A stretch of DNA of 64,000 bases, taken from positions 11,430,466-11,494,465 of the forward strand of contig NC_092322.1 of NCBI RefSeq assembly GCF_036785885.1, written 5' to 3'. Numbering within the stretch: the stretch's first letter is position 1; every line of letters starts with the position of its first letter. The notes beneath the pieces were generated by a model. The model worked only from the letters and a program-made list of their open reading frames with translations. It did not search any database and was not told the DNA's origin. Positions 7,211 to 64,000 of this stretch are shown here, one piece after another. A program made the translations under genes and the position numbers. The stretch is from Coffea arabica. Lineage: Eukaryota; Streptophyta; Magnoliopsida; Gentianales; Rubiaceae.

Positions 7211-7394
7211 TTTATAACAGAGTAATAGTAATAATCTATATAACATGTTTGGATACGAGACTATTTGGAAAAATTATTTGAAAAAATTGGTTGAAAACAT
7301 TTTTTATAACAGAGTAATAGTAATAATCTATATAACATGTTTGGATACGAGACTATTTGGAAAAATTATTTGAAAAAATTGGTTGAAAACATTT
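7211..7394. repeat. Perfect 92-bp tandem duplication
   Basis: Two adjacent copies (7211-7302 and 7303-7394) match without difference along 92 bp. Each contains the phrase ATGTTTGGATACGAGACTA, which resembles the ends of the 'GTTTGGAT' MITEs elsewhere in the window. The identity points to a very recent duplication, or to an assembly artefact. Confidence 0.85.
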
Positions 7395-15684: not shown

Positions 15685-15956
15685 CATTATCTAAAAGTAT
15701 ATCAAGACTTAGATTTTATGTTCTTCTACGTGTTCTAGAAGAAAGATGCATATAGGAGTATCATATTTGACTCCATTGGTCGAGACTCATCAGTTGTTAA
15801 AGAAACAAGAAAAGGAACTCAGTCAAAAGTCAAAACCCCTTTTCTTAAATCAATCTTTTAGCACTCTTGATTCATCAGTTGTGTCATGATAACCACAAAA
15901 AAAAAGGAAAATTAAAAATGGGCAGTCAGTCGACTCATGATGAATATTTGAAACAA

Positions 15957-16745: not shown

Positions 16746-16924
16746 TTGAAACAAAGGTGATGATTGATGATAACGACACATTAAATAAATGAGTGCAGAC
16801 AGCCAATACTGCTAGTGGTGGGTACAATGATATAGTGCTTTTTAAAATTTCTTTTTGTGTTGTTTCTTAGTATTGTAAATATTAAATTCAATTTTGGTTT
16901 TTTTTCCAAGCCTTTTAATATGTC

Positions 16925-39700: not shown

Positions 39701-42700
39701 AAATTCCTAAAAAGAACACAGAAAGTATCAAGCTATCAAGAAAAGTTTTAAAAAAATAGAAAAGAACAAGAAAAAGTCCATAAATCAGAGATCTTCAAAA
39801 CCTAATTTGACATCTCGGCTGGCCCATGAAATATTTATAGTGTAGAATGTACCTTCATTTCTGAACCAGAATATGCCCAGTTTGGTGAAAAATCAATGAT
39901 GCTAAATAATTGGTCCTGCGCAATAGAGGGGCTCATCATGTATGAATCTATGTGTACTTGGGGAGCTATATTAGAATCACCCAATCCATCATCATTTCCA
40001 ACAGTCTCCCAATAGGTTCCAGAGCTAGATTGTATATGTGATTCATTCACATCCCCAAGTTCTCTGCTCATCCAACGGTCAAAGCTGTCTAGCTTCTTAA
40101 GACCTTCTTTGAGAACACCATCTAATAAAGGTTGTCTCAAGGTTGGATACTCAGCTTTTCCTTCAATGCCAAGATTCCCATTGAATGCAGATTTAGCAGA
40201 AATTCCACTCTCTGCCCTGATAAGATCTACTTGAACATCAGTCTCTATGGGAGATTTAAGCATACTGAATGTCTCGGAGGAATTTGGCAACTCCGCGTTG
40301 TTAACTTCATTAAAGCTAGTACTGAGATTACGGCCTGACGGCAGGTTCAACTTCTGATCCATGTGCCACTTGGACAAGCTTGAGGCATCAACTTCAGAAG
40401 TCTGTTGGCATTTAAAAATAAACAAAAATAGTACATCAATGGCAAAGTTGGCTCATTACAGACTATTAAAGTACACAAACTCACATAGGAATATAAGAAA
40501 AGATCTTTGCAAACATAACTCTCTGAACAAGTGTGTTGTGGATATCTAATATAAGAAGCAAGATACATGAGAGAGCCCAAACATCAGTATAGGGAGTTTC
40601 TCCTTTTACAGTATACCATGGAAATATTTTGCTATCACAGTGATGCATTCGAGTTTCTTCATTTTCCATATTTTGACTTCTTTTTATTTTAATCCTTTTA
40701 AGTTTGTACCACCAAAGAAATGTTATGGCATGCCTAACAACAACATATATAGACCATTCTTACTCATCAGATAACAGTTTTGTTTACCTGCCACTGTTCC
40801 AAGCCACCCACATGGGCATCAGAGTCCTGCCTCTTGCCTAAGCCATCAGTTAAAGCTTGCCCAAGAATGTCATTCATACCTCCAGGCATTACATTTATGG
40901 TACCATGTTGAGTTGCAGAAACTGATGGCTGAAAATTGACAGACTGATATCCTCCATTCCTGCTGTCCAAGACATTGCCCCAAGATGGGAAGTCAAGGTG
41001 TCCTTCCGGCATATATGACAACCCAGCACCTGTAGTGCTCTGATCTTTTTCTCCTTGCGGAATGGAGGCAAAATTAACATCAGGAACACCTGAAAATTGT
41101 CCTTGATATCCATCTGTATAATTTTGATATATTAACCATAAGGACATTCAATTTCCAACTACTAGTATAAGTTGTAAAAAAAAAATGCTGAAGCTAGTAA
41201 CAAATGAGCCAAAAGATAGGATCATATTACTCAAGGTAGAGCCTGCATAATAGGGCACGGGCCTACCTTCTGCCTTTTGCAACACAGGCGGTTGTATCTC
41301 AAGAAAAGTGTGGAACCCAGAAGTTGATTGTTGAGTGTATGCTGCAGTAATTCAGTTACATATAAATCATTAAAAAACTCGAGTATCATATACTTCTATT
41401 TTTTTTTTCCTGTCAACAATCAATATTTAGGTACAACAGAAAACTAAACCGGGTTACACTTGCACAATCTAAATGTGACAGATTTGTGAGGCACCTGATT
41501 CAGCATCCTCATACTCCGAGGCCTGGGCGCTGTTAAGGCTAACCGTATCTGTAATTTGTGAAGTGACTTGATAACCGTAGGAATGGAATTTTGAGGTTGA
41601 ATTACTGTTAAATTCAGAATTGGGGGCATCATCTTCACTTTCTTGGGTATTAGGAATGGCTTCTCCAATCTCTCTAACGCGGTTATAATTAGTTCTGTTC
41701 CCCTAATGAAATGGCAGCATAAGAGAAGTGTTTTGTCAATCTCCCAAGCATAAACAAAACTTCCTTTTAATCAAGAGGGATACAGACAAGTGCATTAGAG
41801 GAAAATCCTTGATAAGCAGTCGGTGTTGGTTTTGCATGTAAAAGCCATAAATGGAAAAAGCAAATTTGACCAGGTTCAAAGGCAGAAGAATTTGCAATCG
41901 AGAAATGCGATTACAAAGTTTGGAAGTCCAGCAGTAAGTTAATCATATTTAACCAAACAAGTTCTATTATGCTACCATATTTCTAATTCAGGTCCATCAA
42001 TAGTTAAATCTTGAAAAGTTAATCAAGATCACTCATTTTCGTAAAAAAAAGGTATTTACACAGAAGAAGATTTTGTATTGAGATTTCAAATGTATTACTA
42101 GTAGCAGTGATCAAGATTCAAGAATAAAAACACAACCAGTTGAAACAATCTGATTAATAGAAGTAAATTCTACCTTTACTTCTCGGTAGTGGACAAGAAC
42201 TATGTGTGAGAGCTCCCTGCAGCATGTACAATCAACAAATTACTAGAAGATGGAATGCATAATTATTGCAGCTAAATTATTTATATACATCACGGTAGGA
42301 AGCTCAAAAAGATACAGATACTAAAAAAGTATGCACACAGTGGATGTAGGAAAGACAAGCACTCTGCACAAGATAACCATTGATGTGGATTTGGAAAGGC
42401 TAGATCTATATAACCTATCTTTGTAAGTAGGGATTGGTAGGCACATACTGAGGGGGAAAAAATCTTAAACTAATTGAGTAGTTTTGCTTGGGGTACTTTC
42501 ACATAATTATATTCCAATAACAAAGCAAGCCTTGGCGTAAAGGTAACACACTCTTTTGTTGAATCGCAGCTCACTAGCTCAATGGTCTATGACACAATTT
42601 CTGTCCAACCCAGTACATTTTGCAGATTCAAACCTTGCAGTACAAGAATTGAGCAACAGATCTGGCACCTGATATTAGTTCCAGAAAGTTATTATGAAAA

Positions 42701-45700
42701 CACTTATCACATTATCCAATCACTACATCTCACAAAGTAATAATGCCAACTTAAATGTTAAGTCTCATAATTTTAGAAACTTTGACAGCGAAGAATCAAT
42801 AGAACAACCTGGATATTTCATTCAATGTTGAGATGGATGTAATTTCAAGTCTTTTTAGCATTGAATTAAACTTTATTAAACAATGACTGAACTTCAATTG
42901 CTAAATTTTCTGAAGATGTTGTCCATATGGAAGCATTTTTTCTATAATTGCTGCATGAAAATTACTTATGTAACTTTGGGATGCCAAATAAAAACCTAAG
43001 AAGAAGAAGTTAAATGATTGATCCTATTTGTTGACTGCAGAAAAAATGTATTAGCTTTTAGCAAAGACAAATGGTCTTCTAGATGCAAATTCACTTTCAT
43101 GCTATCTTCATCTCATGTGAAGGGTACTACAAGTATCCACAGCATGGCAAAATGCACCAATATATGCTTAAGACAGCATTCTTTACTTACTCTTCAAGCA
43201 TCCAATAGCTGCGTCTCTGAAAATTTTCATCATCCTCTCCATGGGCATAGTAACAATGTAAAACATCAATACTTCCTGCCTGAAAAGGAGCTTTGCTTTA
43301 GATGTTATTCTAGCATGAACAGATAATAGTAGTAAAGAATGTCATCCCAAAAGATAGTAAGATCTATAACACCAAAAACAAGCACCAGAATCTGGGGGCA
43401 GCAGGAGGGAAGGGGAAACTAACTTCATTCTATATGGTCCACTAAGCTTTTGCAAAATCACTAAGCAAAGAAAAGTTGCCAATAAACCTTAAGCCTTTCA
43501 TGAGCTTCCTTCACAGTTTTCCCATCCTTCTTTTTCCTCCAATTATGGCCATCTTTTCGAAAATAACGTAAAACCTTCCGATCAAAGAGAAAGAGCGAAC
43601 CACCTGATAAAGACATAACATGAAAAATGTCATCAAAAGGACCTAAACCATGCGAAAATAGCCAGCAAAAAATGTCATGAATAAGAAAACTACAACTTTG
43701 GATGATTATAAATGAATGAGCCAGCATGATAAAGAAAACCTTAAGCAGTTAGCTCCTAACTCTCTCTGGTAATCAGTAGGATAACTGTCACACAGAATAT
43801 AAACTCTTACTCTCATAGTCTCGCAGCAATGCAAAGGTCTTAAACCTACATAATCTCCTCTTTCTTCGCAAGTAACACGTTGCTTCACTGACAAGGCTTT
43901 TTGATAAAGGCCTTTCCCTTTCAGTGAAATTGGCCTGGCTAATTTGTAAATTTTGAGAAGCTTTCACTTTGTTGATTCTAAATGAAGTAAATTTTTAGAG
44001 TACTTGGTATCCGTCTTTGCCTATTTTATACCATGATAAGTCAGATTCTGAAGACACCTTAAAAGTTTGTTTGCTGAGAACTATGCCATTACCAATCAAT
44101 CCAGCAGAGCAGGATTAAAAATGAGACATAAGGAACCAATGAAGTAAAAGACAACAGATGGAGATTTGTTAAAGCAACCAGTTCCAAGAACACGACGATG
44201 TGACATGCGCAATACCAAAAAAAATAAGCGAGAAAGGGTCTCTGGATAACTCAATATGACAATTAGTTTCCAAACTCAGTTAACAAAAGATCTTTTTTTT
44301 TTCATTCAGCTGAACACTGGGCCACGCCAAACGTTACTTTGCAATAGATGCCAACCTTGGCTCTTTTTCTTCTTTTTTCAGTTTCATTATCTAATTATAG
44401 CTATGTTATTTCTATTCATCTTTTCCTCCAGAAGTAACCTAGATATTATCCTGACTTGCAAACTGTTATTTTACAGGAAAAGCCAGAATGAGACTTCTCT
44501 TCTCCTAACTTTCTATATTGAGGATCTTTATTTATCAAACAACATGCTGTAGATTTTTCTTCTATTTTTTTTTTAAAGAACATTATCACTATCATCTTGT
44601 CACTCTCTTCCTCTAGTCCAAAATTCAGTCTAGCTTGTCCTCACTGGTGCAGCCAATGGTCTTTATAGCAGTTATCCCAGTTCTTAAACAACAGTCTAAT
44701 TCTATAATCTCGACCACTACTTAGCCAAAACTACTTATATTACATCTCCTGTAGATACGTAGTAGTATTAAGTTAATTTCTACAGAGTAACTTTTTGCAA
44801 AAAAAAAAAAAAAGAGAAAATCCTAAGAGTTATGTTTCCAATTTTCACAACTTCCATATAAGACAAAATATGCGGCCCAGGCTGGTTCTACCATTAAAAT
44901 TTTAAACTGTTCCCAACAGTGCAAAACAATTTCAGATTAGATCCATCTCTTTTGTTGGGTCATGACATATAAGAGATGAATATTGAAATGAGCAAGAGTT
45001 GTCAACAGCATGATATTCTACCATCTAATTGAACACCAAGAAGCATAATAGAGCACAATAAATGAGAGATGAGATGTAAATGTTGATAATCCAAAGACAC
45101 ATGCTATAAAAATGCTCTAAGAACATTAGCTGACTCTCTAATGCTAGATTCTCTCCGTGCAAAATGTCAATTGACCTTGTAGCAGCTTGTAACAGCTGTC
45201 AAACCTATTTTTTCTGTTATAAATGTGGCTTCAAGTTCACATGTCGTCTGATTAAAAGTTATACTAGAAGATCCCGAACATTTCATTAGCAACATGGGAT
45301 TTTCACAAACTGCTAGAACTAAGTAAGTATAATCATACTTGGAGGCCTATTTGGAGGCTCTGGAGCAATTCGAAACTTTTGGTAGTTTCGCAGGATTTCA
45401 CAAATTTCAGCAGGACGTAACCATCGATGTTGTGCTTCTACCAGTATCTGCTCAATATCTGCAGTCAAACAATAAAAAATCTCAGACAAGAGACATATCT
45501 ATAAGTTTGGTAGTCTTCTTCCATCAGGAAACTGACATTTTATGTTTTGATGCACGCCCAAAAAGTCAGTGACAAATTTAATGGCATGACTGCGATTAAA
45601 AGATGATCAATCAATTACTCGAGTGACAAATATTAGAACCCAAAAACTTTAGCAGTTGTACATGCAGCAAGACAGAAAAGGATGGCCAAGGAGGTGAAGA

Positions 45701-47690
45701 AGCTTCATGTTGTCTAACTAAGCCCAACAGCAGATAGTTTCATTTCCATAACTGAGCCTCGCTGCTCCTAAACCAATTAAACTGCCTTGTTCAGTGTACC
45801 TAAACTCATCCCAACGACAATAACTGGACATTTTATTACAAGGGTCTTGTAGTAAAGGGGCATTTTAAAGCAAGTTTGGTCATAGCTCACAAGAAAGGAA
45901 GGCAACAGTTGGAAAATCTTACTTTCTCCAAAAGAGAAGTTTGCCAAAAAATAAGCACAGGAGGAGAATTCCAAACTAATTTATCATGAGAAACTAGAAA
46001 ATAGAAAGTTATTCTTGCCCTTGACAAGGAAAAAAGCATCATCATACCTCACCAAAATCCTATGACAGAGAGTGCAATCAACTAAGACTCTCCAAAAAGA
46101 AAATAACAGCAGCAACACACAACTATAGAGGTGACCCCCCCCCCAACAAATGCATATGATCCAAAGAAGTACCAATTAAATAGCATATGATCTTCTTCTC
46201 CATCTCTTCCCAATGATAGCGGTCCCACAAAACCGTTTCGAAAGTCTTCTTTGCCAGCTTGCATCTAAGCAAACCCCAAGTTAAAAATAACACTTGGAAC
46301 CTACTGAATGTCAAATTAGTATGACAATGCTAATTTGGTTGCACAGAAGTGACCTGGATTCCTAAATTCTACAAGCCGAACTCTGACTTGCTTAATGCTT
46401 TTAAAGATAATTATCTACACATAGTAACCTTAACCTTGTTTTTGGAGTAATATTTTACAACAATTACCCTCCAGAATATATGTTACAAGCAGTTGGTGGA
46501 CCCAAAAAACATGAATAAAAAATTTAGAGACAATCACAGATTCTAGTTTTCCAAAAGTATAGCATATTAGCTGTCTAAAGTAGCCTAACCCCTGCATAAT
46601 TTGACACCGGGTTGTAAAGCAACCTAACATGCTACATTTTACACCAGGTAGCAATGCACCATCCTGGACCTAGTCTACAAATCATAGTTATCCATGTTCT
46701 AGGAAATACAAAGGAGAACTCCTGGCATTTGATGATCACATATCTGATTAAATCAAAAGAGACTTCCCCGATACAAACCCTTGCCATGCCGCAATCCACC
46801 TTCAATTAACATCCGGTAGCAGTGATACCCTTGTAATGACAAAGTATAACGTTTATTCTACTTTCCGTTGCAACCAGACATGAACTCCAGCACTGTTAAA
46901 TACCTACAACTTCCAATTTTTGGTATATCAATTCACCCATTTACAGCTGAATGCTTCAGAGCTTATCAAAAGTTTGGATATTTACACCAAAACCACAAAA
47001 CTAACGCACAAAAAATCGTGCTTTTCCCAACTTCGGTCCATGTCGTTACTGCCATTACCAAATTCAGGAACAAGCGGCTTTCCAACATTGCTGGCCTACT
47101 TCTCCCCAAACTACTTCTAGTACACCCTATATATCCATGTAAAATCAAATTTTGAAATGAACTGATGGCCCCTATGAATAAACTTCACATAAAAAATTCC
47201 CCTTTTGCTGCTTCTCTTGTTTTTATCCCTTCTTTTTCTCATTGGATGTGACGAGAAAAAAAGTTCACAAATACCTTCACACTTAATCTTGAGCACCCAA
47301 AAATGGTTCTAATTATATCTAAACTTTCCAAGATCATTCATACTGGTCAAATATTGGTCATGCAACAATTACTTACATCACTTACATACTCAATTACATT
47401 CAACCAAGAGTTCTAAATCAAACAAAATCAACCACAAAAATTCTAAAACATCTAAAATCTATCACTACCCGCCAAAATTAAGTGCCAGGATAGGCTAATT
47501 CAGTCCATAAAACACCCAATCACAAATCAAAATCAGACAACTTTTTTTTTTTTTGAAAAAAAAAACACAACTCCTAACAAAATCAAGATAAATAAACAAA
47601 TTCCAGAAAAAATAGCCACTAGAAAAGAGAAAAGACCAGAAAAAACTAACCTAATTGAGCACCAAGCGCGTATCGTCGACTCTCCGCCAT
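36739..47690 (-). CDS. CAMTA3: Calmodulin-binding transcription activator (CAMTA2/3 clade), 13 exons
   Basis: Exons 1-13 (minus strand): 47651-47690, 45339-45458, 43488-43603, 43191-43279, 42174-42216, 41495-41702, 41231-41341, 40788-41113, 39853-40401, 38928-39625, 38131-38731, 37665-37988, 36739-36840. All junctions are GT-AG and keep frame; 1108 aa. The CG-1 DNA-binding domain is about residues 14-136 (HRWLRPAEICEILRNYQKF, LFLFDRKVLRYFRKDGHNW, RRSYWMLEEELSHIVLVHYR). Next are a divergent acidic middle, a TIG/IPT domain (about 520-610), ankyrin repeats (about 718-800, GWTALHWAASFGR), two IQ motifs (about 938-981) and the calmodulin-binding helix (IIWSVGILEKVILRWRR). The acidic C-terminus is DLIDLDALLDDDPLM. 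CAMTAs bind CGCG/CGTG promoter elements in the nucleus under Ca2+/calmodulin control; the Arabidopsis CAMTA3 clade represses salicylate immunity and activates cold genes. The TIG domain places it with CAMTA1-3; the exact orthologue is uncertain. Intron 1 is 2.2 kb. Intact. Confidence 0.95.
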
Positions 47691-48060: not shown

Positions 48061-48473
48061 TCAGCACTTTGTAGAGTAATTATTAGTATAAAAAATGGAT
48101 AAAAGCCTCTGCCACCCTGCCAGATCATTCTCTTATGTTTCTTAAGTTTCAAAAATGGATAACCTTTTTATATTATGGATGTTGCTGCGGTATGTTTACT
48201 AATCAGAGAAGAGGTATGGAAAGTAAAACATATGGTAAATAAGGCAGCACGTTGCAACCTGACATGTACGGATTAAGAAGAGAATATTTCTAAAAAAGCA
48301 AGTGGTGAGTCTGGTGACCTATAACCGGGGTTTGGAAATGTTGCGTATTGCAGAAGCTAAAAATGTGTTGGGATGTCACGAAATTAATATAAAAATAAAG
48401 GGGCTAAGAATAAAACATTTGTGAGGAAGCGTAAGCAGTACTAATTACTAAACAAAGCCATCCTGGGACCACT

Positions 48474-48660
48474 GATTATGGGCATTACATCAACAAAATA
48501 CTATCTATTTATGGGCATTTTATTCTGAATCATTGCATTTATGTAAAATACATAAATATTTTGGATAGCACGGATATTCACACTAGTTGTCCTTGTACTA
48601 AGTTTTATGGGCATTTTACCCTGAATCATTACATTTTGGATACTACTTTGATTAGAATTT
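48474..48660 (-). repeat. Left terminal copy of the 215-bp repeat
   Basis: The phrases ATGGGCATTTTATTCTGAATC, ATTGCATTTATGTAAAATAC and CAACAAAATACTATCTATTT are the reverse complement of units in the 56.3-57.1 kb array. A second partial unit (ATGGGCATTTTACCCTGAAT) lies at about 48608-48640. An ACGGATATTCACACTAG phrase at about 48571-48587 interrupts the pair. Confidence 0.7.
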
Positions 48661-48759
48661 AGTTTAAAGACATTCACTGGAGTTTGGACGTATCCAGAGA
48701 GCACCGATCGATGTATGTTCAAGCGTAAATTGAAATAAATATGCAACTTAAAATTTTTA

Positions 48760-51230
48760 AAAATAAATTACTACTGCATATCCGAAATTTACTTTTTGGA
48801 GAGTAGGTTTAGTTCATACTATTTTTCATAGTATTTTAAAATATATAAGTACAAAAAATTTTAAATTATACCTATAATCATGTATTATACGAGTATATTA
48901 TGAGTACTTACTAACTAAGGTACTAAACTTTAATCATTAATAAAACATCTTATCGTTAATTCAAATAAACTTTCTAATACTAGTTTGAGATAAGTTTTAA
49001 AGTAAAATAGTGCATGCGTCCCATAAATCAATAAATCTTGATTATTAATCAAATTTGCCATGTTATTAGTAATAATTACTATTTATGTATAAAAACTTAC
49101 TATTACTTGAATTAAACTTACTAAGGTATATTATGAGTGCTTACTAACTAAGGTACTAAGTTTTAATCATTAATAAAAACATCTTATCATTATTTCAAAT
49201 AAACTTCCTAATACTACTTTGAGATAAGGTTTTAATGTAAAAATTGTACATGCATTCCAAAAAATGGTAAATTTTGATCCTTAATCATTTTTATTGCCAT
49301 GTTATTAGTAAGAATTACTATTTATGTATCTTACTATTATTTGAACTAAACTTACTCTTTTAAAAGTAAGTTTGGGATATCAAGTAGTAATCTATTTATT
49401 TAAAATTTAAGTTTAATATTTATTCCAATTTACCTTTGAGGTATAAAAGTTACTAATCTATTACACTTAACTTACTATTTTAGATAGGAAACTTACTTCC
49501 ATAATTTTAGGTGTTATTTTATTTAGGTGAATAGGTCCAACAATAAATCAAATGATCGTTAAAAGTACAACAATATGTTATATCAGGTAAAAACTATTTC
49601 GCTATCATAACTATCGTTTAGTATCTATATCTATATGTATTGCTGATGGGGTTTTGGATAAGGAGCTTCCAAAATTATCAAAAGTCTGAATGCTATTTTA
49701 ATAGAATTTTACATTTTTATAATTAAAAAATATTTATCTCTTAACTAATCATGTAACCGGCCCTACAAATCCTATAATCATACTTATATTTTTTCCACAT
49801 TTCCCTCATGTTTTTTCCACTATCCCATAAAATTCAAACTCCTAAACTTTAACTAACGAATAATAACCACCCCTGTAAAATGATATCTGCAAATTCCAAT
49901 TCACATCTCACATTTATTACTGACACTTATCATATCACTTAGAGTAATAACTAACCGTTAATTTAAGAAATTCGTAACTACGAAAGTCAAATATCCAAAA
50001 TTTAGGAGTATGTTTAAATTACAATTTTCACAATTCAACGTATCTTATTGTCATAATATATTTTACTCTCACAATCATTCACAAATTATAAAGTCATTAA
50101 AAATAAATAATTTTTTTAATAAAAATTAATTCAAAGGTAGTTAATTCACACACACACACACATATACATATATATATATATATATATTCTCATAATGCAC
50201 ATATATATAAGATTATCAAATCGAATGCATAATATTGGTAAGTATTTCATTTTAAAATAAAAAACATGCAATTACATTTATTTCTATCCATATATCATTC
50301 ATTTTATAATATAAATTATTATTATTATTTTAAGATCCATCTTTTGCAAAAACACAATTCTTGAATGATTTACAGTTTTTTTTCATATTTTGAACTATTG
50401 TTAGATAAATCTTAAATTTTAATTATGTTGGTATAATTTTTTTAACTTTTTTCAAATTAAAATGGTATAATCTTTTGATTAATTTTAATAATGTAAGCAC
50501 CGTGTGTAGTACGGATATTCACACTAGCTGTCCTTGTATGACCGAACCTGAGAGTTTGAGCATGTTTTGGTTGAATGTTATAATTCAAAATTTGGGGTTT
50601 GGAGGGAATAGCTTATATCCATTGTAATCAAAACTCAAACAAATGTAGGGATAAACCTGATTGTCACAACAAACTATACAAATGTGGGGATAAATCTTAG
50701 TTAGTAAGTACTCATAATATACCTGTATAATAAATGATTATAGGTATAATTTAATATTTTTGTATTTATATATTTTAAAATACTATGAAAAGTAACCTTG
50801 TAAAATCTATAATAAAATTTTGTCTTATCATAAGTTTGTATTTATTTTCAATTTTTGAAAAGTTTGAAAGTTTGGATAACAATAACAACAAATCTTCCTA
50901 GTTACACGTAGAATATCACTTGTTTCTATATCACAATTTTTATAATTTAACATCTATGAATATAATAAAATAAATGTATTATTTTATAATACGATAAAAT
51001 TTTATTATTTTCGAAGGTTATGTGAAAGGTCAAAATATTTTTCACAGAATATTTTAAAATATATAAGTACAAAAGAATATTAAATTATACATATAATCAT
51101 GCATTATACAAGTATGTTACGAGTACTTACTAACTAATGTACTAAGTTTTAATCATTTATAAAATATTTTATTGTTATTTCAAATAAGCTTTCTAGTATT
51201 AATTTGGTATAAGTCATAAAGGATTGAGTG
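48760..51230. repeat. AT-rich repeat copies and microsatellite DNA
   Basis: Copies of the 26.9-29.2 kb family occur at about 48790-49620 (ending near TATCATAACTATCGTTTAG) and 50690-51230, partly in opposite orientations. Between them are AT-rich DNA and a compound (CA)n-(TA)n microsatellite at about 50150-50188. ACGGATATTCACACTAG occurs twice (about 48571-48587 and 50512-50528), both times followed by TGTCCTTGTA. No gene. Confidence 0.55.
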
Positions 51231-51339
51231 ATTTGAGTCAGTTGCTTCTGTGTTAATTTTGACTGTAGTTAACGAATTCAATGATTTAGTCCGTCTACCT
51301 TAGGTTAGTGGGAAAATGGGTCACAGTTGGCTGGAATAA

Positions 51340-51840
51340 AATTGTAATAAACCCGTTTTCTAATAAAAAATCAATTCTTTATCGCTTTCCTCCATTATAA
51401 GAACAAAGTACCCCTTTTCCTAAAAAAAAAATTATTTATCGGATAAAATAAAAATAAACCTGTTTTTCAATAAAATTCTAACTCTTTATGCCTTTCCTCT
51501 ATTATAAGAATTGTGCACCCATTTTGCCATAAACAAATTTATTTATCAAATAAAAAAATTTATTTATCGAAAAAATAAAAATAAACCCGTTTCTCAATAA
51601 AACATCAGCTCTTTATGGCTTTCTTCCCTTATAAGAAAAGAGTATTCATTTTGCCATAAACAAATTTGTTTATCAAATAAAATAAAAATAAACTCTTTTT
51701 TCAATAAAAAAACTAGTTCTTTATGACTTTCCTCCATTATAAGAATATAGTACCCATTTTTCTAAAAAAATATTATTTATCGAATAAAATAAAAATGAAC
51801 CCGTTTTTTCAATAAAACACCAACTCTTTATGAAATAATT
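51340..51840 (-). repeat. ~107-bp tandem array, left (inverted) copy
   Basis: About four to five units. The anchor CTCTTTATGNCTTTCCTCCAT recurs at about 51376, 51483, 51611, 51718 and 51825 (spacings near 107, one of 128). Each unit carries TTATAAGAA, a run around ACCCATTTT, AATTTATTTATC and AATAAAAATAAACCCGTTTT. It is the reverse complement of the 54960-55575 array. Confidence 0.8.
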
Positions 51841-52202
51841 TAAAAAATCACGTAATTCTTTCACATCCTTTCTAAAAAAACTCTGGAGATACACTTAAAA
51901 TTATATTAAAATTGTACAAGTACTATAGGAATTTAAGGGGGGCCCCACTATCCCCACCTTAAATCCACCTCTGTAATGCCAAAAGAAGTGCGGGAAAGCT
52001 TCCCTCCAACTCTACTGAATAATATAAGTACAGTCCAAGCCTCCAAATTTGTCTGAAACCCGTTGCTGATTTTTCCTCCTCTCAAAACTCCTCCAACCAC
52101 CAAACTTTATTGTCCTTTTTCCCCTTCTTGATTCTTCCATCTCCAACGGAATCAAGCTTCATAATAAGAGGGGCTTTGTCTTAAAATCATACATTTTTTT
52201 GA

Positions 52203-53181
52203 TTAGCTATTTAGCACGCCAGTTGACGGAGTAAGCGGAGGCAGTGGAGGACTCGATGACGACGTCCTCGTCGTCGTCGTCTGAGCCTGGACCTTCAACG
52301 TTCCCTCCTCATTAGTTATAGCCAAAGTTTGGGTTTGGGACCGCGCGCTCTCTTGCGCCAAGGCATCACAAAACGCCCGATGCGTGATAAAGCTATCCTG
52401 CCTTCATTTCATAAAAAAGAAAACAAACAAGGAAAAAGAAGGGGGAAAATGTTCATTAAGAAACGAATGAGAAAACTCGTTGAGTTTAGCTTCGTTCTAG
52501 TGGCATGACCTGGAAAATAGGGTGCCGCAGTCGCAGGGGTATTCTCTGGTGCCGCAAGTTTTCGTGTGCGCTTTCCAATCAGAGATGACGGCATACTTCT
52601 TAGAGCAGCGTTCACACTTCCATTTCTTCTCGCCGTGTTTTCTGCAGAAGTGTTTTTTTATGCCAGTTAGGTCCCCAAGTGCTCTGGAGGGGTCGTGATG
52701 AATGCAGGTTGCTTCAGGGCAGACGTATACGCGCTTTTTAACTTCTTTCCCGTTTCTCTGCCGGAGTTTCCATGGCAAGTTATGGCCTCTTCTGTGTAGT
52801 TGCAAATTCTGGTCTCTTTGGAAACCCTTGTTGCAGATCTCACATACAAATCGGTTTGTTGCTAAGAGAGTCTTTGGTGATAAGGCTATCACTTCTGCAT
52901 CTGGATCTACATACAAACTACCGGATAAATGCCCCAAAAAGAAACAAAGGAAAAGAGAAAAATATAGCACTAGTTTTTTAAGATAAAAAATTAGGAAGGT
53001 ACAAGTACGATTTGAGGAGCTATATAGTGATGATTCATGAGCAGCTACCTGGCATTCCAGGAAGGTTACGCTTTTTCTTGACGGGTCCAACTTGAGCAGC
53101 TATCATTGGATTGCCAGCTGAGGAAACACTAGCTTCTTCAGAAGCCGAAGGGACTGTTGCCATTGCTGATGAATTATTCAT
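52203..53181 (-). CDS. INDETERMINATE-domain (IDD) C2H2 zinc-finger protein, C-terminally truncated
   Basis: Exons (minus): 53049-53181, 52510-52906, 52203-52401; 242 aa. Introns: 142 bp (GTAGCTGC donor, TATGTAG acceptor) and 108 bp (GTCATGCC donor, ATGAAG acceptor), in the positions typical of the family. The NLS-like KKKRNLPGMP leads into DPDAEVIALSPKTLLATNRF. The four-finger ID domain covers residues about 64-195: CEICNKGFQRDQNLQLHRRGH, CPEATCIHHDPSRALGDL, CERCSKKYAVISDWKAHTKTC, CDCGTLFSRQDSFITHRAFC. ID proteins are nuclear DNA-binding regulators of root patterning, gravitropism and sugar or flowering responses. The usual FSRRDSF reads FSRQDSF here. After SSSSPPLPPLTPSTGVLNS it stops, where relatives continue for 150-300 residues with conserved C-terminal motifs. 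It is either a shortened functional protein or a captured/decaying copy. Confidence 0.8.
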
Positions 53182-54959
53182 ATCCACCTACTCTCTACAA
53201 TCCGTTTTCCCTTTCTTTTCCCAGGAAAAATCAGCGGGATTCACTTTGTAGCAAACTTTCAAGACTTTGAGAATAAAAACGCTTTAAGCTGAGGTGGTGA
53301 ATTGGTCCAAAAATCTTTCAGCAAAAATTCAAATCCTGGACAGGAAATTGTTGAGCTTCAGCCTGCATTAGAAGGGAGTCCACTATTAGGTATAATTTTT
53401 CAAAATGGACTATGCTAAGATGGAGTTTTGTGAAAATTTATATTCGCAGTTTACTTGCTTAATTAATTTAGATGTCCCTATCCATAAACAGACCCAGTAA
53501 ATTGTTTGGTTTTAATTGCTGGGACCTACAATAATTTGCTTGAGAACTAAGAAATTTTTGGGTAGCTACATGAAAATTAAATCACTCATCAAGATTTGAT
53601 TTTCTTTTGAATGTTTTCCTGATGGTGGGAAAGCAGAAAGTTTGGTTGACTGTAATTGTGCTTGCCTGCATCGAAGTCTGATAACAAATTTCTTATTGTA
53701 GTTCCTAGACAAAAATATTGTGAGTCTGTGCACAAAACTATCAGGAGAAAAACTCGCACAGTGATGGTTGGCAACTGGCTCTCTGTAGTGAGCATCCTAT
53801 ATGAGTTCAAACCATGACTACAACAGACACTAAAGATGTTGCTGGAACAGTTGAACAGGTGCTATTTATTTCTGCTTCCATGATGGTTTTCTGTAATACA
53901 TTTTTATTCAGTGATACGACTTGATATGGAGAGCAAGCTGTATATATTTGGCGTATTTAAAAGTTCATTCATCTTATGGGCCCATTCCCCCCCTCAGCCA
54001 AACAAACAAAATGGGAATGAAGAAGACGAAGAAGAATCTGGTTGATGCCTGTGTATAGATGGCCATGTTCCATTTTGGATTTGCTTTGATTGAGTCTTGA
54101 CTTGCATTGCTTACTAGGTGTGATTGGGGGTACTTAAACTTATAGGGGTTTTTATAGGGTTTATCAAGCAATAAAACTTTGCGGGAGAAAAAAGAAAACT
54201 TGCTGGATGTTAACAACTTTTCTCTGCTCTCGACAATGGGATTTGGAAAGGAAACCAGATGGCAGAACTAATCTGAATTAAGAACACATCTTTTTCTTAA
54301 AGTAGAGGCAATCTGCAAAATGAAGCATGAGTGTAATCACCTATTGTACTTTTCGCATCTCCTCTAAAAGTTTGTGTGCATCTAAGCTTAACATTTCTAG
54401 AATGAAGAATGCTGCAGTTTGAATTGCAATTGATTTTTTGAACTGTTTATATAAGCTGAAACTTTTTAGAACATAAATTTGGCCATAAACTAGGAGTGAC
54501 AAACAATTCAAGCAGTTAACTTGTTTTTGATAGTTTGGAAGCAATGGCATGCTTGTCATCCTTTAATGATGTCCACTGAAGCACTTATCCTCAGGTTAAG
54601 TGTTACTTGTTGTAGGTGATGGGGATAGCTGATAAAGAAGCAGACTTAGTTCGAATAACAGTTCAAGGGAAGAGAGAGGCAGATGCATGTTATGATTTGA
54701 TTTGAGTATTTTTGTGCTTTGTACCGTTGATAATATTGGTTGTAATATATTGTTGCTCGTTTTGTATTTGTAATGACAAATTGATTTGTTATTTCATATA
54801 AAATTTTTGCTATATCTCAATATTGACATTAATGATACCTCTTGCTAAAAAAAGTAGCAACTACAGTCACAAAGTTGCTTTTGGCAACTTTCTTGCAAAA
54901 AAATCATCTTGCTGCATTTGATCGTCTTTGGTAAGGGGTCGATGGTTTCTAATTAAAGA
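53182..54959. other. 5' flank of the IDD gene
   Basis: About 1.8 kb without another supported exon; moderately balanced composition, so it may be the gene's own promoter carried inside the repeat-bounded unit. 54596-54690 has an open stretch without a recognisable domain. Confidence 0.4.
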
Positions 54960-55575
54960 AGTTACTTGTTTATGACAAAATGGACACTCTTTTCTTATAA
55001 TGCAGAAAAGTCATAAAGAATTGATGTTTTATTGAAAAATGAGTTTATTTTTATTTTATCCGATAAACAAATTTCTTTTTGCCTTCAAAATGGATACTCT
55101 GTTCTTATAATGGAGGAAAGTCATAAAGAGCTGGTGTTTTATTGAAAAAATGGGTTTATTTTTATTTTATCTGATAAATAAATTTGTTTATGAAAAAATG
55201 GGTACTCTGTTCTTATAATATAGGAAAGCCATAAAGAGCTGATTTTTTATTAGAAAATGGATTTATTTTTATTTTATTCGATAAATAAATTTAGTTATGA
55301 AAAAATGGGTACTCTGTTCTTATAATGGAGGAAAATCATAAAGAGCTGGCCTTTTATTAGAAAATGAATTTATTTTTATTTTATTCGATAAATAAATTTA
55401 TTTATGAGAAAATGGGTACTCTGTTCTTATAATGGAGGAAAACCATAAAGAGCTGGTCTTTTATTAGAAAATGAATTTATTTTTATTTTATTCGATAAAT
55501 AAATTTAGTTATAAAAAAATGGGTACCCTATTCTAATAATGGAGGAAAATCATAAAGAACTGGTCTTTTATGGGA
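54960..55575 (+). repeat. ~107-bp tandem array, right copy
   Basis: About six units. The anchor GGAGGAAANTCATAAAGAGCTGG recurs with CATAAAGA at about 55011, 55121, 55228, 55337, 55443 and 55551 (spacings 106-110). Each unit continues TTTTATTAGAAAATGAATTT, ATTTTTATTTTATTCGATAAA and ATGGGTACTCTGTTCTTATA. The middle units are nearly identical, suggesting recent homogenisation. Confidence 0.85.
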
Positions 55576-56309
55576 AAGTGATACTTTACACAAAGTGACC
55601 GCGATTTGGTTTATGAAATAATCCCAAATAAAAATTTAGAATGAATTTATTTGTTTTAAAAGTTGTATAACGGTCGTTAAAACTCCAGAGATTGGCAAAC
55701 AAATTTTGGGGTTGCATAAAGGCAGAGCGAAGATGGAGAAGAATTGAGTTTTTTGTCCGTTGTAATTGTTCCGTTAAAAATGGCTCTATTCGATTTTACC
55801 CATTTTTTGTTGGGTAAAATCGTTGGTTCTAACGATCAATTCTTCATTTCCCGTCAATTGTCCTTAATTGGCCAAAATTACGAAACTTTGAGGATGAAAA
55901 GTGCATTTTTTCCTATAAAATATTTAATCAAATGTTATTTCTTGTCTTAATTTTTGTTATGACTATATTACATATTTATTAAATAGACATACCTTTATAA
56001 TTAAAGTTAATATTTGATATTTTAGGATGCCATATATTTAAATAGATGAAAATTATTTTGAATATAACATATTAAAATAATTTTATTTGTCAATCATTTT
56101 GCCCCCCCTCCAAGGAAAAAATCTTGATTTCGTCACTGCTTAGGAAGAAATTGGGGTCTATTGCTAATAAAAGATTGTGAAAATTTACCTTTATATCCTA
56201 ATTATTTGAAAAAAATCTAATGAACAAATTTTGCGAAAAAAAAACCTTGTTTCTTACCAACAAATTAAGTAACTAATAAAATCACCTGTAATGTTGTTTT
56301 AACATATTT

Positions 56310-57119
56310 AATTTATGTTAAATACAAATTTTACCAGTTTCTCTTTCGTAAAAATATAAGTATAACACCTTTTCAATTTTAGTTACAAACATTTATTTAT
56401 TTTACATAAATGTAGTGATTCAGAATAAAATACCCGTAAATAGCTAGTATTTTGTTAATGTAATGCAAAAAATCCTTAAAGAGCTGGTATGTTATGGGCG
56501 CAATCTTTTTTACTTTCACATATTTAAATTTTGTTAAATACAAAATCTACCAGTTTCCCTTTCGTAAAAATATAAGTATAATACTTTTTCAATTTTAGTT
56601 ACAAACATTTATGTATTTTACATAAATATAATGATTCAGAGTAAAATACCCATAAATAGTTAGTATTTTGTTGATGTAATGCAAAAAACTCATAAAGAGC
56701 TGGTATGTTATGGGCAAAAACTTTTTTACTTTCACATATTTAAAAATTGTTAAATACAAAATTTATTAGTTTCCTTTTTGTAAAAATATTAGTGTAACAC
56801 TTTTTCAATTTTAGTTACAAACATTTATGTATTTTACATAAATGTAATGATTCAGAGTTAAATGTCCATAAATAGCTAGTATTTTGTTGATATAATGCAA
56901 AAAAATTATAAAGAGCAAGTATGTTATGGGCAATTTATTTTTTACTTTCAAAATCAGTTTATGCTAAATACAGGACAATCAGTTTACCTTTCACAAAAAT
57001 ATTAGTGTAACGGTTTTTCAATTTTAGTTATAAACATTTATTTATTTTACATAATTGTAATTATTCAGAGTAAAATGCCCATAAATAGATAGTATTTTGT
57101 TGATGTAATACCCATAATC
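56310..57119 (+). repeat. ~215-bp tandem array, right terminus
   Basis: About four units. The anchor AAAATAT(A/T)AGT(A/G)TAAC recurs at about 56356, 56572, 56788 and 57001 (spacings 216, 216, 213). Units share TTTTCAATTTTAGTTACAAAC, TATTTTACATAAATGTAATG and CATAAATAGCTAGTATTTTG. They also contain CATAAAGAGCTGGTATGTTAT, close to the anchor of the 107-bp array, and 215 is about twice 107. Confidence 0.8.
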
Positions 57120-59020
57120 GGGAGAATCAATTGGAATTCACTATTCCTCAGTCTTGGACGCTTTATGTAAAGTAGAGATATTTGTATTCAATTAAATATG
57201 AAACATGCAACAATCTGTCTTCTCATGAACCCAGTTTCCACAAATGTTAATATTTTATTAATATAACAATTAAAATCAATTTCAATAATTTAAATTTAGT
57301 AGGTTAGATAAAAGTTGTTAGAAAAGTGAGAAACCAAAAGAAAAATAACTCAAATTTATTAAAAGTCCAAAAAGAATTTAGTACTTCAGCTCTAGAAATC
57401 CTCCAAATGACTATATATTAGAATAGCGATAATCAAAATAGATTACATAATTAAAAAACTTAATATTTCAAACATTTATTTTCTTAAGTTTCACTTTTTA
57501 AAGGCTCTCAACTCGTTATTCAATAATGTCCATATGTTGCTTCAAAACCAAGCATGACTGTGTTTAGTACTGCTTACGCTTCCTCTTCGGTGTTTTATTT
57601 CTAGACCCATTATATATATGTTAATTCCTTGACACCCCAATACATTTTCAACTTTTGCCATACACAACATTTCCAAACCGGCCCGTGCCTGTTATAGGTC
57701 ACCATTTACTTTTGTAAACATATTCCTTTCATCATTCGTATATGTCAGTTTCTTTGACATATTCTTTACCTTTCCACGTGCCTGCTTCTTTGCCATATAA
57801 TTTACTTTCCACACCTGTCTTTGAAATATGTGAATACACTACAGAATTTACCTTTATTATTATAAGTTGATAATTTTTTTTACGCTGGTAAGTTTAGATC
57901 ATGGTAATATATAATATATATTCAAAATTATTAATATAAAAAAATTATTATACTATTGATGCATCAAAATTTAATCCTTTGTATCATTTATTGCTTATGG
58001 CATTTTTTTCTCCCGCATATGATTCATGTTACAAAATTATTCTTATTTTCTAACCAAAATCATTATTTGTTCTTCGTCGACTTAAGTCTTCTACCTGAGT
58101 TTTTTCTCCAAATAATCCTATTTTTTAAAAATATTTATTCAAATTTTATCCTCATAATATTTTTTTTGTGCCACATAATACTAATTTGCCATGTTGAATC
58201 GCAAGAAAAATGAGAGTTCAATCTAGTAATTCCTGGAGAAGTAAATTTATAAATTTTAATTCTATTTTTGAACGAAGAGTAAGATATGCTAGCTTTTATT
58301 ATTCCTATATAATTTATTGAAAGTAGAAAGTTTTTGGTTGAGCAAGTGATATTATATTCTCTCTCCCAAAATGAGTTTTTTAATATCATATTTTGAAATA
58401 GGTTATAAATATTAGAAAAAGTTTAAAGTATGAGAAGCCAGTAAGATTTTTTAAAATTCAAAAGTGCCAAATGATATAGTTTGAAATTATCCCAAAAGGT
58501 ATTTCAAAATGTGTTTGTGATATAAGTAAAATACTATTAGAGAAAAAATTATATCCAAACAGAACCTAGGTATTCTGTACTTTATAATTTATTGCCATGC
58601 TCATATTAGAATGTTAACCAACAAAAACAAAAACATTATTAGTATTCACACCATGATTAGCAACAGATAAATTTTCACAAGAAGACTGTATAAAGAAGAA
58701 ATATGAAAAAAAAGAAGAAGAAGAAGAAGAAGGAAATTAGAAAGGCATTTTTTTGTACCAATTGCCAAGGTTGTTGCGAGGCAAAATATAATAGCTAAAA
58801 AATGAAGGATCCATATGAATTAGGTATTTCTGAAGGTATTTTTAAAAAACTACATTGTAGCATTGTATTTCAAAAATTTTCTATTCGCTTCGTATGAATT
58901 AGGTATTTTTAAAAATGTATTTCAAGATGTTTTTAAAATTTTGTTGAAATATGTTTAGAAATTTACTAATTTTCCACTACCACACAAAAGCTACTTAAAA
59001 GTCACAAGTTGCATTTTAAG
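57120..59020. other. Intergenic, AT-rich
   Basis: No gene recognised. A (GAA)n microsatellite lies at about 58710-58733. A remnant of the 'GTTTGGAT' MITE family (ATATCCAAACAGAACC on the right) lies at about 58460-58570. The phrase GTATGAATTAGGTATTT(T/C)T occurs twice at about 58815 and 58897. Confidence 0.4.
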
Positions 59021-59126: not shown

Positions 59127-61854
59127 TGCAGGGAATAGCGGAGCTGGGGAAAGAATTTGGAGAAGGAGAAGGAATTGAGAGAAGAGGAAGGAGACAAGAG
59201 AGAGAGAGAGTAACCGAGAAGAGAGAAAAAGTAATCTTTGTATTATTCCAGATATTTTTGTAATCTCCAAGTAATGGAATCTTTATACAATTCTGTTATT
59301 CTGTTATCTTCTCCAACGAACTAATAATACTCCTAACTAACTGAATTAGTGCAACTGCGTCGTTTAAGCCATCCTGCCCACAAGTCTCCAAAACGCACAG
59401 CAACTGTCACCAAACGACACCCTTAATTCCTTAAGGGCCTGACATTCCCTCCCTGATAAGAATTAAGCTTGTCCTCAAGCTGAAAAATCAGGAAACTGCT
59501 TATCACTAAACGTCTTGTCCTCCTAAGATGCTTCAGTTTCTGGCAAATAAGTCCACTTAACCAAGTACTGAACAACGGGTTGAGAGTTGCGCAGAACGGC
59601 CCTCCTTCTCAACACCTTCTCGGGCTGCAAAATGCACTGGTCAGAAGCATCAAACTCAGGCCGGGTGGACTCAATGTTTTGGCCTACACCCACCCTCCTT
59701 TTGAACAGAGAAACATGAAAAACTGGGTGAACTCTAGCTCTTTCCGGAAGCTGCAGCTTGTAAGCTACGGCTCCAATTTGCTCAATAATCTGGAAAGGAC
59801 AATAGTACTTAGGGGACAATTTTAAACTTTTTATGATTGCCACAGTTTCGGCAGCAACTTCAGAAAGATCCAATCACCTATTTAGAAAGACCTCTCTGTC
59901 CTATTTTGATCCGCAAAGTGTTTCATTCGATTCTGGGCTTTGGCCAGGTTTTCTTTGATGTTTGCTATAACCTGGACTCTCTCCTGTATCATATCAGTAG
60001 CTGCAGGAATAACACTGTCATGGAAGGGTCCTAGTGGTAGGTGTAATGGTCTATACCCATAGAGAGCTTCAAAAGGTGTCAGTTGCAAACTCGTGTGAAA
60101 ATTGGTGTTATACCATAGCTCAGCTGTAGATAGCCAAGTACTCCAGTGGGATGGATGTTCACCACACATCCACCGTAAGTAACTTTTAAAGCACTGGTTG
60201 ACCCTCTCGGTTTGCCCATCTGTTTGAGAGTGATAAGATGAACTATAATGTAACTCCATTCCCATGGCACGAAACAGCTCTTGCCAGAATTTGCTAAGGA
60301 AGACTTTGTCCCTGTCTGAGGTGAGGGACTCAGGGAGACCGTGCAATTTATACACGCGATCAAGAACCAACTGAGCTACCTAGTGGGCAGAATAAGGATG
60401 GGACAGCTTCATGAAGTGACTGTACTTAGTGAAGTGATCCACCACGACGAGAATGGTATCATACCCATTAGAGAGAGGCAGCTGCTCAATAAAGTCCATA
60501 GTCAGGTGTGTCCACGCCTGCTGAGGGATTGGAAGTGGTTGCAAAAGTCCGGGGTACGAGACATTTTCATGTTTATTCCACTGGCAAGTGTCGCAAGCTT
60601 GAACAAACTGTATAACATCCCTTTTGATGCCTGGCCAATAGAATAAAGCTTGCATCCGTTGTAAACATACCCTTTGTCCAGAATGACCCCCCACAGCTGA
60701 ATCGTGTAAAGCCTTGATTAAGCTGTGTCTAATACCATTAGCTGTTCCTACATACAGCTTTCCCTTGAATTTGAGCAATCCGTTCTCCAGTTGGTACTCT
60801 GAGCACGCACTTGGATCCAGCAGCAACTGAGACATGATATCCTGAGCCACGCTATCACCATTATAACTTTTGACTAGCTCCTTTATCCACACTGGTTGCA
60901 CAGCTGAGAGGGCACAAAGGTGCTTCAGTCCTTCTGGTTCCACCATTTCTCCATCCATCCTTCTCCTAGATAAGGCATCGGCGACTCCATTTTCAGTCCC
61001 TTTCTTGTATTGGATCTCATAGTCGAGGCCAAGTAACTTGGTAAGCCACTTGTGCTGCAAAGGGTGGGTAAATCTTTGTTCGAGTAGGTACTTAAGAGCC
61101 TGATGATCAGTTTCGATGATAAAGTGGTGCCCAACTAGGTAATGCTTCCATTTAGTCACTGCCAGCACCAAGGCCATCAGCTCTTTCTCGTACACAGACA
61201 TCCCTCAATTCTGCGGAGAGAGAGCTCTACTAAAAGTTATAGGGTATCCCTGTTGCATTAATATAGCCCCAATGCCCACACCACATGCATCAGTTTCTAT
61301 CACAAAGGGAAGCTCAAAATTTGGCATTTTAAGGACTGGTGCAGTAGTCATGGCCCTTTTGAGGTCTTCAAATGCTATTTGGGCATTATGATTCCACACA
61401 AAGCTGTCTTTTTTTAACAACTGAGTTAATGGTTTACAAATGATCCCATATCATTTAATGAACCTTCTATGGTATCCAATCAACCCCCAAAACCCCCTCA
61501 AGTCCTTGACTGTGCCAGGGGTAGGCCATGACTGGATGCATTCCACCTTGCTCTTGTCCATGCTCACTCCTTTCTCCGAAATAATGTGTCCTAGATACTC
61601 CACCGAGGTTTGAGCAAAAGAACATTTAAACCTTTTGCAATAAAACTGATTGTCAGCTAATATCCCCAACACGATCTTCAAATGCTGCGCATGTGCTTCC
61701 AACGTGGGGCTGTAAACCAGAATGTCGTCAAAGAAAATCAACACGAACTTCCTCATATAAGGTTGGAATATCCTGTTCATCAAGGCTTGAAAGGTAGCCG
61801 GTGCATTGGTGAGGCCAAATGGCATCACTAAAAACTCAAAATGGCCATGATGCG
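59127..61854 (-). mobile_element. Fossil Ty3/gypsy chromovirus (3' half, broken)
   Basis: An LTR retrotransposon fossil read on the minus strand in the gypsy order: reverse transcriptase (about 61451-61854), RNase H (about 60950-61420), integrase with its zinc-binding and catalytic core regions (about 59880-60950), then a chromodomain-like C-terminus (about 59523-59640), which marks it as a chromovirus. A polypurine tract (about 59445-59456) is followed by a probable 3' LTR starting TGTCAGGCCC, about 318 bp (59127-59444; the far end is uncertain). Gag, protease and the 5' LTR are not in the window. It is broken, with about four interruptions, and its reverse transcriptase is cut by a second LTR element. 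Age cannot be set without the other LTR; the decay suggests an old copy. Confidence 0.85.
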
Positions 61855-64000
61855 TGTGACGACCCCACTTCCCCCTAAGGCGTACCAAAGGGTTCGGCGG
61901 ATCGCCTGCCCAACTCTCGTCAGGACTCACTCACTATGGAACTCGAATCATGTACACACATTCATGAACCATAAATAACATCCAATTCTCCAAAAATTAC
62001 ATATCATAAGCGCAGCGGAAACTAGTTCTAAGCGTAGAATGTAGATATACATCCGATTCAAGTCCAAATATTTATACAGGCCCAAAAGTACATAAACCAA
62101 AACCAAATCTAAACTATACAAGATGTACGCCATCCAGCCACACAGAGATCCAAATACAAGATTTCCTTTACTTCGATCCCTGTGGGGAGAAGAAGATAAT
62201 AGGGGGTGAGTTAGAAGCTCAGCGAGTGACCAGTAAAATCAGTAAGCAAATATATTTCACAATAGTGTATTTCAATGATGTCATGATTCAGAGATCAAAT
62301 ATACATTTATTGCTCACGAGAGCCAGTGAAGTTCTTGTACTTAAATATCTAATGCTCGTTTAGATCAGGTAACCGTGAAATAAAAGTAAGGAGCCATCGT
62401 GCTCCAAAGAATGTGTAAACAGTAGTGGAGACATTGGTTCTAAGCACAAGACTTTCCAGGAACTCATTGGAACCAAATTATGTCATGACACACACCCGAA
62501 CCCCAAATGATATGCAATGGAGTAATAAATGCAAGAATTAGTTCAAAAGCAACTTTGGAAACAGTCGAGGGATCACTCACCCAAAATATAGTGCTTCAAG
62601 TATTCACGTTCAATTATACTCCAGGTTTGGAGTCCAGATCTGCAATAAAAATCCAATTTGAGAACTTTGAAACACGAGTAAGATTCAAAACTTAAACGTT
62701 CCGTTCATTAAAAATCAACCAATTGAAATTCATTTAAGACATTCGTGAAAAACTTGCTCGCTTTTCAAATCGTAAGATTTTTGTAGCATATATATTTGGA
62801 AACAACACTTGAGTTGAAAGTACAAGGAAATATAAGTTTACATTGGCCATTATATCTTTTCCTCAAGGGTACAAGTTCGTTTAGGTTTTTAAAGTATAAC
62901 CCTCGATAACAAAGCAGCAAAGGTGCTCGCTAGTTCAAGTGATAATCACTTAACCTTTACACAAGTTACAAGTCTCGTTTCCTAGTCCTCGAGTGTAAAT
63001 TGGGGCAGCATACCCTTTGTGTTTACCTAATTTTCCAGCCATTTATGGCTTCATTCTTACTCAATCCAATCCAACATTGTACACTAAACAAATCCATAAC
63101 ACAAATTCAGTTCAATAGCCATTTCATAGGCTCACAACAACACACGAACAAAGATTAAGTTAATTTCAAGTGCGGAAATTCAATTACAAAAGACAGACTT
63201 GACGGGCTTTGCGGAAATAATATATCTGAGGCTACGCTTATCGGATTGATACGCAGATTATACCATTTCAAAGCTAAGATGAAGGCCTACAACTTTCATG
63301 AAGGTCACTTAGTCAAATTTTCAATGTAACCTGATCAAATTCCCAACTCACATAACCTGGTTTCAACTATTCGGCTAATCGACCGCACTGCATTCAGGTG
63401 ACCATATCTCAGTCTACCAAGGTCCGTTTAAGGCGTTCTTGGTGGCGTTACAAAGCTAAGACAGGGCACTGAAACTTTCATGTTTTGGTGAAAGGCTAAA
63501 TCCAAACGGATTATAATGACTAAACGCAATCAAATAGACTAAACTGTCCACGCGGAACTCTAAAATGTAACCTAAATTAGCAGGGGTATTTTCATCTTTT
63601 TACAAGCTACGATGCTCTGATTTAGTTGAAATTTTGTAAGTAACTATAAAATACCATTCTCTATAACTTTCATGTTTTGACCTAAGGCCAATTCGGCCTC
63701 TAACATGAGGCTACAAAACCGGACAGAAAAAGGGGAAATTTTCCAGAAATCTGGAATTTGTTGATTTCAATCCAACCTTCCTTGATTTCTTACTTCCAAC
63801 ACTACCAAAGCCCCTTATATAACCTTATATACAACATATATTAACTATACAACAAGTTTGGGTAGCACTTAGTCAAGCCCTAACTTACATATTTCATCCA
63901 AAATCACCACAACAACTTGCATAACTTGTAATCAAACCCAAAACATGAACTATTTAACATATTAAACAAGAATAAAATGATCAAAGCCATAGATAAGATT
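61855..64000. mobile_element. Second LTR element inserted in the chromovirus, continues past the window
   Basis: The chromovirus homology stops abruptly at 61854 and unrelated sequence starts TGTGACGACCCCACTTCCCC, a typical LTR terminus beginning with TG. At least 2.1 kb follows without resumption of the chromovirus. It is non-coding as far as seen, with phrases such as TACAACTTTCATGAAGG and GAAACTTTCATGTTTTGG. It is therefore either a long LTR or an LTR plus leader. Orientation and family are not determinable here. It must be younger than its host element. Confidence 0.6.

Follow-up and report, generated by a model that had tools for sequence, protein, structure and literature searches.

A probable non-autonomous Mutator-like element with foldback-type ends and nested HDS and IDD gene fragments in Coffea arabica

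In a stretch of the Coffea arabica genome, a piece of an IDD transcription-factor gene, introns included, lies between several layers of inverted repeats, which raises the question of whether repeats have gathered around a resident gene or a mobile element has picked up part of a gene from elsewhere. The stretch analysed here (the window; 64,000 nt, G000:C13:11430466-11494465) was compared with a genome of 1,197,963,845 bases in 131 contigs, and positions given below without a chromosome label are those of the window. The initial annotation of these letters had proposed a mobile, foldback-type element with a captured zinc-finger piece, and in this it is borne out by paired ends, target-site duplications and source loci elsewhere in the genome. 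The interpretation we favour, with a probability of about 0.87, is that of a non-autonomous Mutator-like element (MULE) of the Pack-MULE kind, with composite ends of foldback type, which is mobilised in trans and which captured a fragment of HDS and then one of IDD by template switching before spreading. The classification rests on the paired ends, the 9-10-bp duplications and the presence of a MULE transposase at right termini that the family shares.

Ends, Copies and Target Sites

End mapping against other copies and the pairing of termini place the element at 48177-57852 (9,676 bp). When the outer left sequence was searched against the genome, 42 matches were obtained (best 40 of 285 candidates scored), 19 of which start at query position 27, corresponding to 48177, with most of the others starting no more than 14 bases further out. 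In the equivalent search at the right end (42 matches, best 40 of 233 candidates scored), 31 start at query positions 4-5, corresponding to 57852-57853. The outer terminal inverted repeats (TIRs) occupy 48177-48445 (+ strand, beginning GGATGTTGCTGCGGTATG) and 57564-57852 (- strand, reading GGTAAATTCTGTAGTG inward from the end), and their length (about 270-290 bp) and mutual identity (about 75%) give the element the long TIRs of a MULE. The initial annotation had drawn the ends at 48474 and 57119, for a length of 8.6 kb; these are the limits of an 88-bp pair, GATTATGGG, which was rejected as the termini as other copies put the left end about 300 bp further outward.

Pattern scans of the genome for the two termini, allowing up to two mismatches and using reversed patterns as a control, found 97 left and 49 right termini, and none with the reversed patterns. 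The proposed search for elements bounded by inverted ends was thereby answered positively, with 29 of the 49 right termini having an inward-facing left terminus within 25 kb, where about 0.05 would be expected by chance. The spacing of these 29 pairs is 8.4-18.2 kb, the longest belonging to a compound site on C19; of the remaining right termini, 12 have a MULE transposase inside them and 8 have neither. Seventeen copies were inspected for target-site duplications, another check that had been called for, and exact duplications of 9-10 bp were found in seven (C20:46.07, C8:8.75, C10:32.07, C3:31.4, C2:7.65, C10:15.3 and C12:15.85 Mb) and duplications with one mismatch in three (C3:14.8, C7:22.7 and C10:3.36 Mb). 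Members of the Mutator superfamily typically generate target-site duplications of such a length.

Some sites hold more than one terminus. In the copy L083 (C9:42.227 Mb), 12 bases separate the right terminus from a left terminus that lies beyond it, so that family ends stand back to back, and at C19:16.703 Mb two right termini about 24 bp apart face away from each other.

Comparison of the window with itself resolved three inverted layers: an outermost pair (48256-48444 and 57564-57751; 75% identity, E 4e-31), then the 88-bp pair (48474-48561 and 57032-57119; 92%, E 1.7e-29), and innermost a pair of arrays of approximately 107-bp units. The middle layer had been described as terminal inverted repeats of about 85 bp; the inverted pairing holds, and the pair is subterminal, with the outer repeats lying beyond it. 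Its left member (48474-48561, + strand) is the single left copy of a subterminal unit for which a genome-wide search returned 1050 first-look candidates, the best 40 of which were scored. The 107-bp arrays at 51334-51833 (+ strand) and 54969-55571 (- strand, 5.6 copies) had been reported as opposed on either side of the gene, and both tandem-repeat detection and their inverted cross-alignment (E 2e-123) agree. A repeat of some 215 bp, likewise reported as inverted, is present on both sides (216 bp) and is tandem on the right only, with 3.8 copies at 56298-57109 (- strand), the left side having one unit and a fragment at 48604-48636. Such composite inverted ends with tandem repeats are those of a foldback element. 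The outer repeat has no match to the arrays in the self-comparison at E 1e-4, and the outer TIR is thus not itself tandemly duplicated. A 444-bp stretch (57120-57563) is missing from the one copy compared at this point, L083 (C9:42216576-42227091), in which the array directly adjoins the outer repeat.

Repeats at 27093-29226 recur, partly in inverted orientation, within the element's left half (48811-51221), at a distance of 20 kb, which suggests that another repeat family is nested in it.

Captured Gene Fragments

The cargo of the window copy is itself nested. The initial annotation had described IDD as the only gene carried, and it instead sits inside a fragment of an ispG/HDS gene (52007-54695), in which 421 bp have been replaced by 1.1 kb of the IDD gene. 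The first part of the HDS fragment (52007-52217, + strand) is 98% identical to C1:52616010-52616220 and 97% to C2:46978820-46979030, and the second (53323-54695, + strand), which has non-coding sequence between its coding pieces, is 98% identical to C1:52614215-52615588 and C2:46977038-46978411. A profile search detected the GcpE domain in the sister copy L039; GcpE/ispG is the profile's designation, and HDS is the name of the plant gene. The source loci (C1:52614215-52616220 and C2:46977038-46979030, about 98% identity) lie on paired chromosomes and carry further GcpE pieces that fall between profile positions 1 and 333, with gaps on C1.

The IDD fragment (52213-53326, - strand) is 98% identical to C19:2361752-2362866 and C20:3880074-3881187, so that its sources, too, are retained at about 98% identity on a pair of chromosomes. 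The two matches stop at identical query positions, and the remainder of the 1,567-base query is unmatched there. Predicted exons, all on the - strand, are exon 1 at 53181-53049, exon 2 at 52906-52510 and the start of exon 3 from 52401; the open frame ends at 52206, its final three codons lying past the junction. The predicted spliced frame has GT/AG splice sites and encodes 242 aa covering the region of all four zinc fingers. In Pfam profile searches, BIRD-IDD fingers 2 and 3 score above the cut-off and finger 4 is partial, as read in the unspliced frame. The gene had been called truncated, as it is, with the break placed after exon 2; a truncation there is ruled out, the spliced prediction running on into exon 3. 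Host gene fragments with identifiable parents elsewhere are a mark of a Pack-MULE, and both HDS and IDD are of this kind.

Capture States and Junctions

Cargo was sampled in 30 copies as the 1.5 kb following the left array and clustered at one chosen threshold, giving three clusters: 12 copies (4 with IDD and 8 sharing HDS), L042 alone, and a group of 17. The expectation that relatives with other cargo should exist is supported by these several kinds. In the 1.5 kb sampled, 18 of the 30 copies (L042 and the cluster of 17) have no HDS or IDD match beyond the core. Cargo of L049 and L060 scored 16.7 and 20.2 bits against Tmemb_161AB, below the curated cut-off of 27 bits, and was therefore left unnamed.

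HDS is uninterrupted in five copies (C21:36.8, C8:8.75, C4:21.6, C14:44.4 and C10:41.75 Mb), where the distance between the flanking matches, computed from match tables, is 421 bp, equal to that on C1 (C2 has 408 bp). IDD stands in place of these 421 bp in four (C13, the window; C3:14.8; C7:22.7; C20:46.07 Mb), and three further copies (C3:34.4, C3:31.4 and C8:16.2 Mb) have an HDS match on one side and another further along. Since copies without either gene, with HDS alone and with HDS plus IDD coexist, the simplest history to be read from the sequences would be core, then HDS, then IDD. On this account, an ancestor lacking both genes would have acquired a copy of part of the plant ispG/HDS gene. 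In a descendant, 421 bp of that piece would later have been exchanged for 1.1 kb of the IDD gene, and transposition would then have carried the resulting composite to four or more places whose flanks are unrelated.

Divergence among the four IDD copies ranges from 0.31% (C13 versus C3) to 1.22% over 1,954-1,999 aligned bases, with 2-93 gapped columns, and the C3 copy matches the window at 100% along 1,686 bp, of which HDS makes up most. The left flanks of the four copies (1.47 kb) have no mutual match at E 1e-10, so they represent separate insertions. All four keep the predicted 242-aa frame with its GT/AG splice sites. In a single test, 7 of the 12 differences within the frame were synonymous, against 23-27% expected (P 0.009-0.022); in the C20 copy, however, a histidine of finger 1 that we read as a zinc ligand is changed, and intact frames are to be expected at such low divergence. 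The synonymous excess is for these reasons not taken as proof of use, and no selection on the frame is claimed. The latest product of the series would be the zinc-finger region of IDD without the rest of the protein, and it may compete with IDD factors; an account extended to this effect we regard as doubtful.

Because all capture states and the surviving source loci are found in one genome, the junctions can be resolved at the level of single bases. The HDS-to-IDD junction (52214-52217) has four bases, GCAC, common to both sides, and the IDD-to-HDS junction (53323-53326) has four, AAAA. Compared with copies lacking HDS, the core-to-HDS junction (52007-52009; L044) shares three, CAA, and the HDS-to-core junction (54694-54695; C8:26.95 Mb) shares two, GA. 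The overlap of source and product totals 13 bp over the four joins, with P 9e-4 in a composition model and P 5e-4 in a simulation of 200,000 random joins of window pieces. As sequence evidence, these overlaps support microhomology-guided joining, and since the four junctions share 2-4 bp beyond chance they suggest template switching, most likely during repair or replication across the element at both captures. Two polymerase jumps would account for the exchange of 421 bp for an antisense stretch derived from a different chromosome.

Transposase Association

Inside the element, the sole listed ATG/GTG/TTG frame of at least 110 aa is that of IDD. A genome profile search for the MULE transposase (PF10551), in which the best 150 of 2147 candidates were scored and all 150 used, gave no match in the element among those scored, no end-to-end scan of the element having been made. 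A PF10551 match does lie 2.5-3.0 kb inside 12 of the 49 right termini, in one orientation throughout, where about 0.025 would be expected; eight of these matches are in an open frame of 823 aa and the others in frames of 438-777 aa. In 5 of the 12, the sequence agrees with the outermost 76 bp of the element's right end at three mismatches or fewer, and no left terminus occurs within 15 kb of any of the 150 scored transposase matches, so that the right terminus is the one shown to be common to the transposase-bearing elements and this family. Transposases of these elements would move the family in trans.

Assessment of the Interpretation

Several results weigh against our interpretation. Among the transposase-bearing right ends, 7 of 12 fail the 76-bp match at three mismatches, and the left-terminus scan found nothing within 25 kb of any of the 12. 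The flanks of the window copy itself form an imperfect duplication, the possible left repeat being TTTATATTAT (48167-48176) and the possible right one TTTATTATTAT (57853-57863), which differs from it by one base of length. Of the 17 copies inspected, three are without a target-site duplication (C4:21.6, C4:65.2 and C15:33.4 Mb), two (C3:34.4 and C10:41.75 Mb) sit within AT repeats and are uninformative, and one (C8:16.2 Mb) has no located left end. On C1 and C2, eight GcpE pieces score above the cut-off or close to it, and four of them are interrupted by stops in the reading of the tool, which translates through introns. Lastly, end joining could leave junction overlaps of 2-4 bp as well.

Overlaps of that size are indeed characteristic of microhomology end joining, too, and the alternative with the best standing accepts the same element and has its fragments joined by end joining, or by aberrant excision of neighbouring elements, in place of template switching. 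For the latter a transduplication model has been proposed for Pack-CACTA (2026 review, available sections of PMC13317346). We hold this alternative to be the less likely one, though a serious competitor: IDD substitutes for 421 bp of HDS in antisense, the sources are still to be found on other chromosomes, and 51-base stretches at the junctions, inspected by eye, have no terminal remnants.

A segmental duplication, or a gene family that expanded without transposition through repeat-mediated recombination, is very improbable. Foldback ends readily undergo ectopic recombination (PMC3169594, in the part available), and the three copies without a target-site duplication would suit such an origin; the sharp common ends, the exact duplications in 7 of 17 copies and the unrelated flanks of the IDD copies do not, and the duplications and flanks largely refute it. 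That IDD is a resident host gene around which repeats gathered can be dismissed for this genome, despite the retained introns, splice sites and open frame (as predicted), given that four copies sharing their junctions occupy unrelated sites, that the IDD piece stands alone on C19 and C20, and that it is truncated in exon 3.

Comparison with Known Elements

The FARE foldback transposons of Arabidopsis were reportedly described by Windsor and Waddell in 2000, and we know of no nested host-gene captures among them. The statement of the initial annotation that no plant family of this layout was known is not supported. Going by description only, FARE is alike in being a plant foldback family with a MULE transposase (as cited in the available part of PMC3169594; also cited in that of PMC4486113), and the sections available of PMC3310237 describe plant MULEs with tandem TIRs, whose ends both bear additional inverted repeats, among them PM-ZIBP, a Pack-MULE of tomato. 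The latter carries a fragment of a zinc-ion-binding-protein gene and has, among the rows listed there, several copies, 9-10-bp duplications and lengths of 944-1372 bp, whereas the coffee element has 9,676 bp; tandem-TIR MULEs repeat the same TIR, whereas the arrays of the coffee element are different sequences inside the outer TIR (PMC3310237, same sections).

Animal parallels are also found. The Tm1 Mutator/foldback family of root-knot nematodes shares composite tandem-repeat TIRs, 9-bp duplications and a Mutator-type transposase, and differs in its 13-15-bp units and its animal host, while Galileo of Drosophila has a P-type transposase (both from the available text of PMC3169594), in contrast to the MULE transposase at the shared terminus of the coffee family. 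Ssk-FB4 of Drosophila (Pack-TIRs, FoSTeST model) is likewise a foldback element with an amplified host gene piece and junction microhomology; it is an animal element with one capture, whereas the coffee element has two nested captures with surviving intermediates (PMC8277862, in the sections available, where the applicability of its models to plant Pack-MULEs is called worth exploring).

Titles among the papers listed in the literature searches included none on this family in Coffea. Work on coffee has described MuDRA probes and expressed sequences of MuDR- and Jittery-like type, the word MULE being absent from the available portion of that text (PMC3823963), and the main text on the Coffea arabica assembly (PMC11018527) contains none of the terms MULE, Mutator, Pack-MULE, foldback or TIR.

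Foldback MULEs, tandem-TIR MULEs and Pack-MULEs being already known, the notable part is the staged, base-resolved capture series, and the combination of layered ends, stepwise nested capture and surviving intermediates is a useful variant. Gene pickup by plant Pack-MULEs was treated as an unexplained or open question in 2012 (PMC3310237) and 2021 (PMC8277862), in the parts available of both. In this genome, family members with neither capture, with HDS alone and with both exist together with the surviving source loci; relatives within the family preserve the steps of capture and so help to show how transposons acquire genes. The series also documents that a reading frame for the zinc-finger region of IDD has spread in several copies, and it provides a pointer to the probable source of transposase.

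Neighbouring Features

A gene on the - strand at 37650-47690, with ankyrin- and IQ-like frames, a first exon MAESRRYALGAQLG and a CG-1-like second exon, is presumably a CAMTA gene, judging from the likeness of its frames. Its start is about 487 bp from the left end of the element (48177), which places the insertion in the upstream region of this gene. On the other side of the element, frames on the - strand at 59523-61930 resemble, by eye, pieces of a Gypsy-type retrotransposon polyprotein. A near-perfect palindrome of about 795 bp (15954-16748, beginning CAAGGGTTAATTACA), 90.7% identical to its own reverse complement, is perhaps a separate foldback element or one resembling a miniature inverted-repeat transposable element (MITE). 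At 7211-7396 there is a two-copy tandem repeat of a 92-bp unit with 100% matches, apparently a recent duplication.

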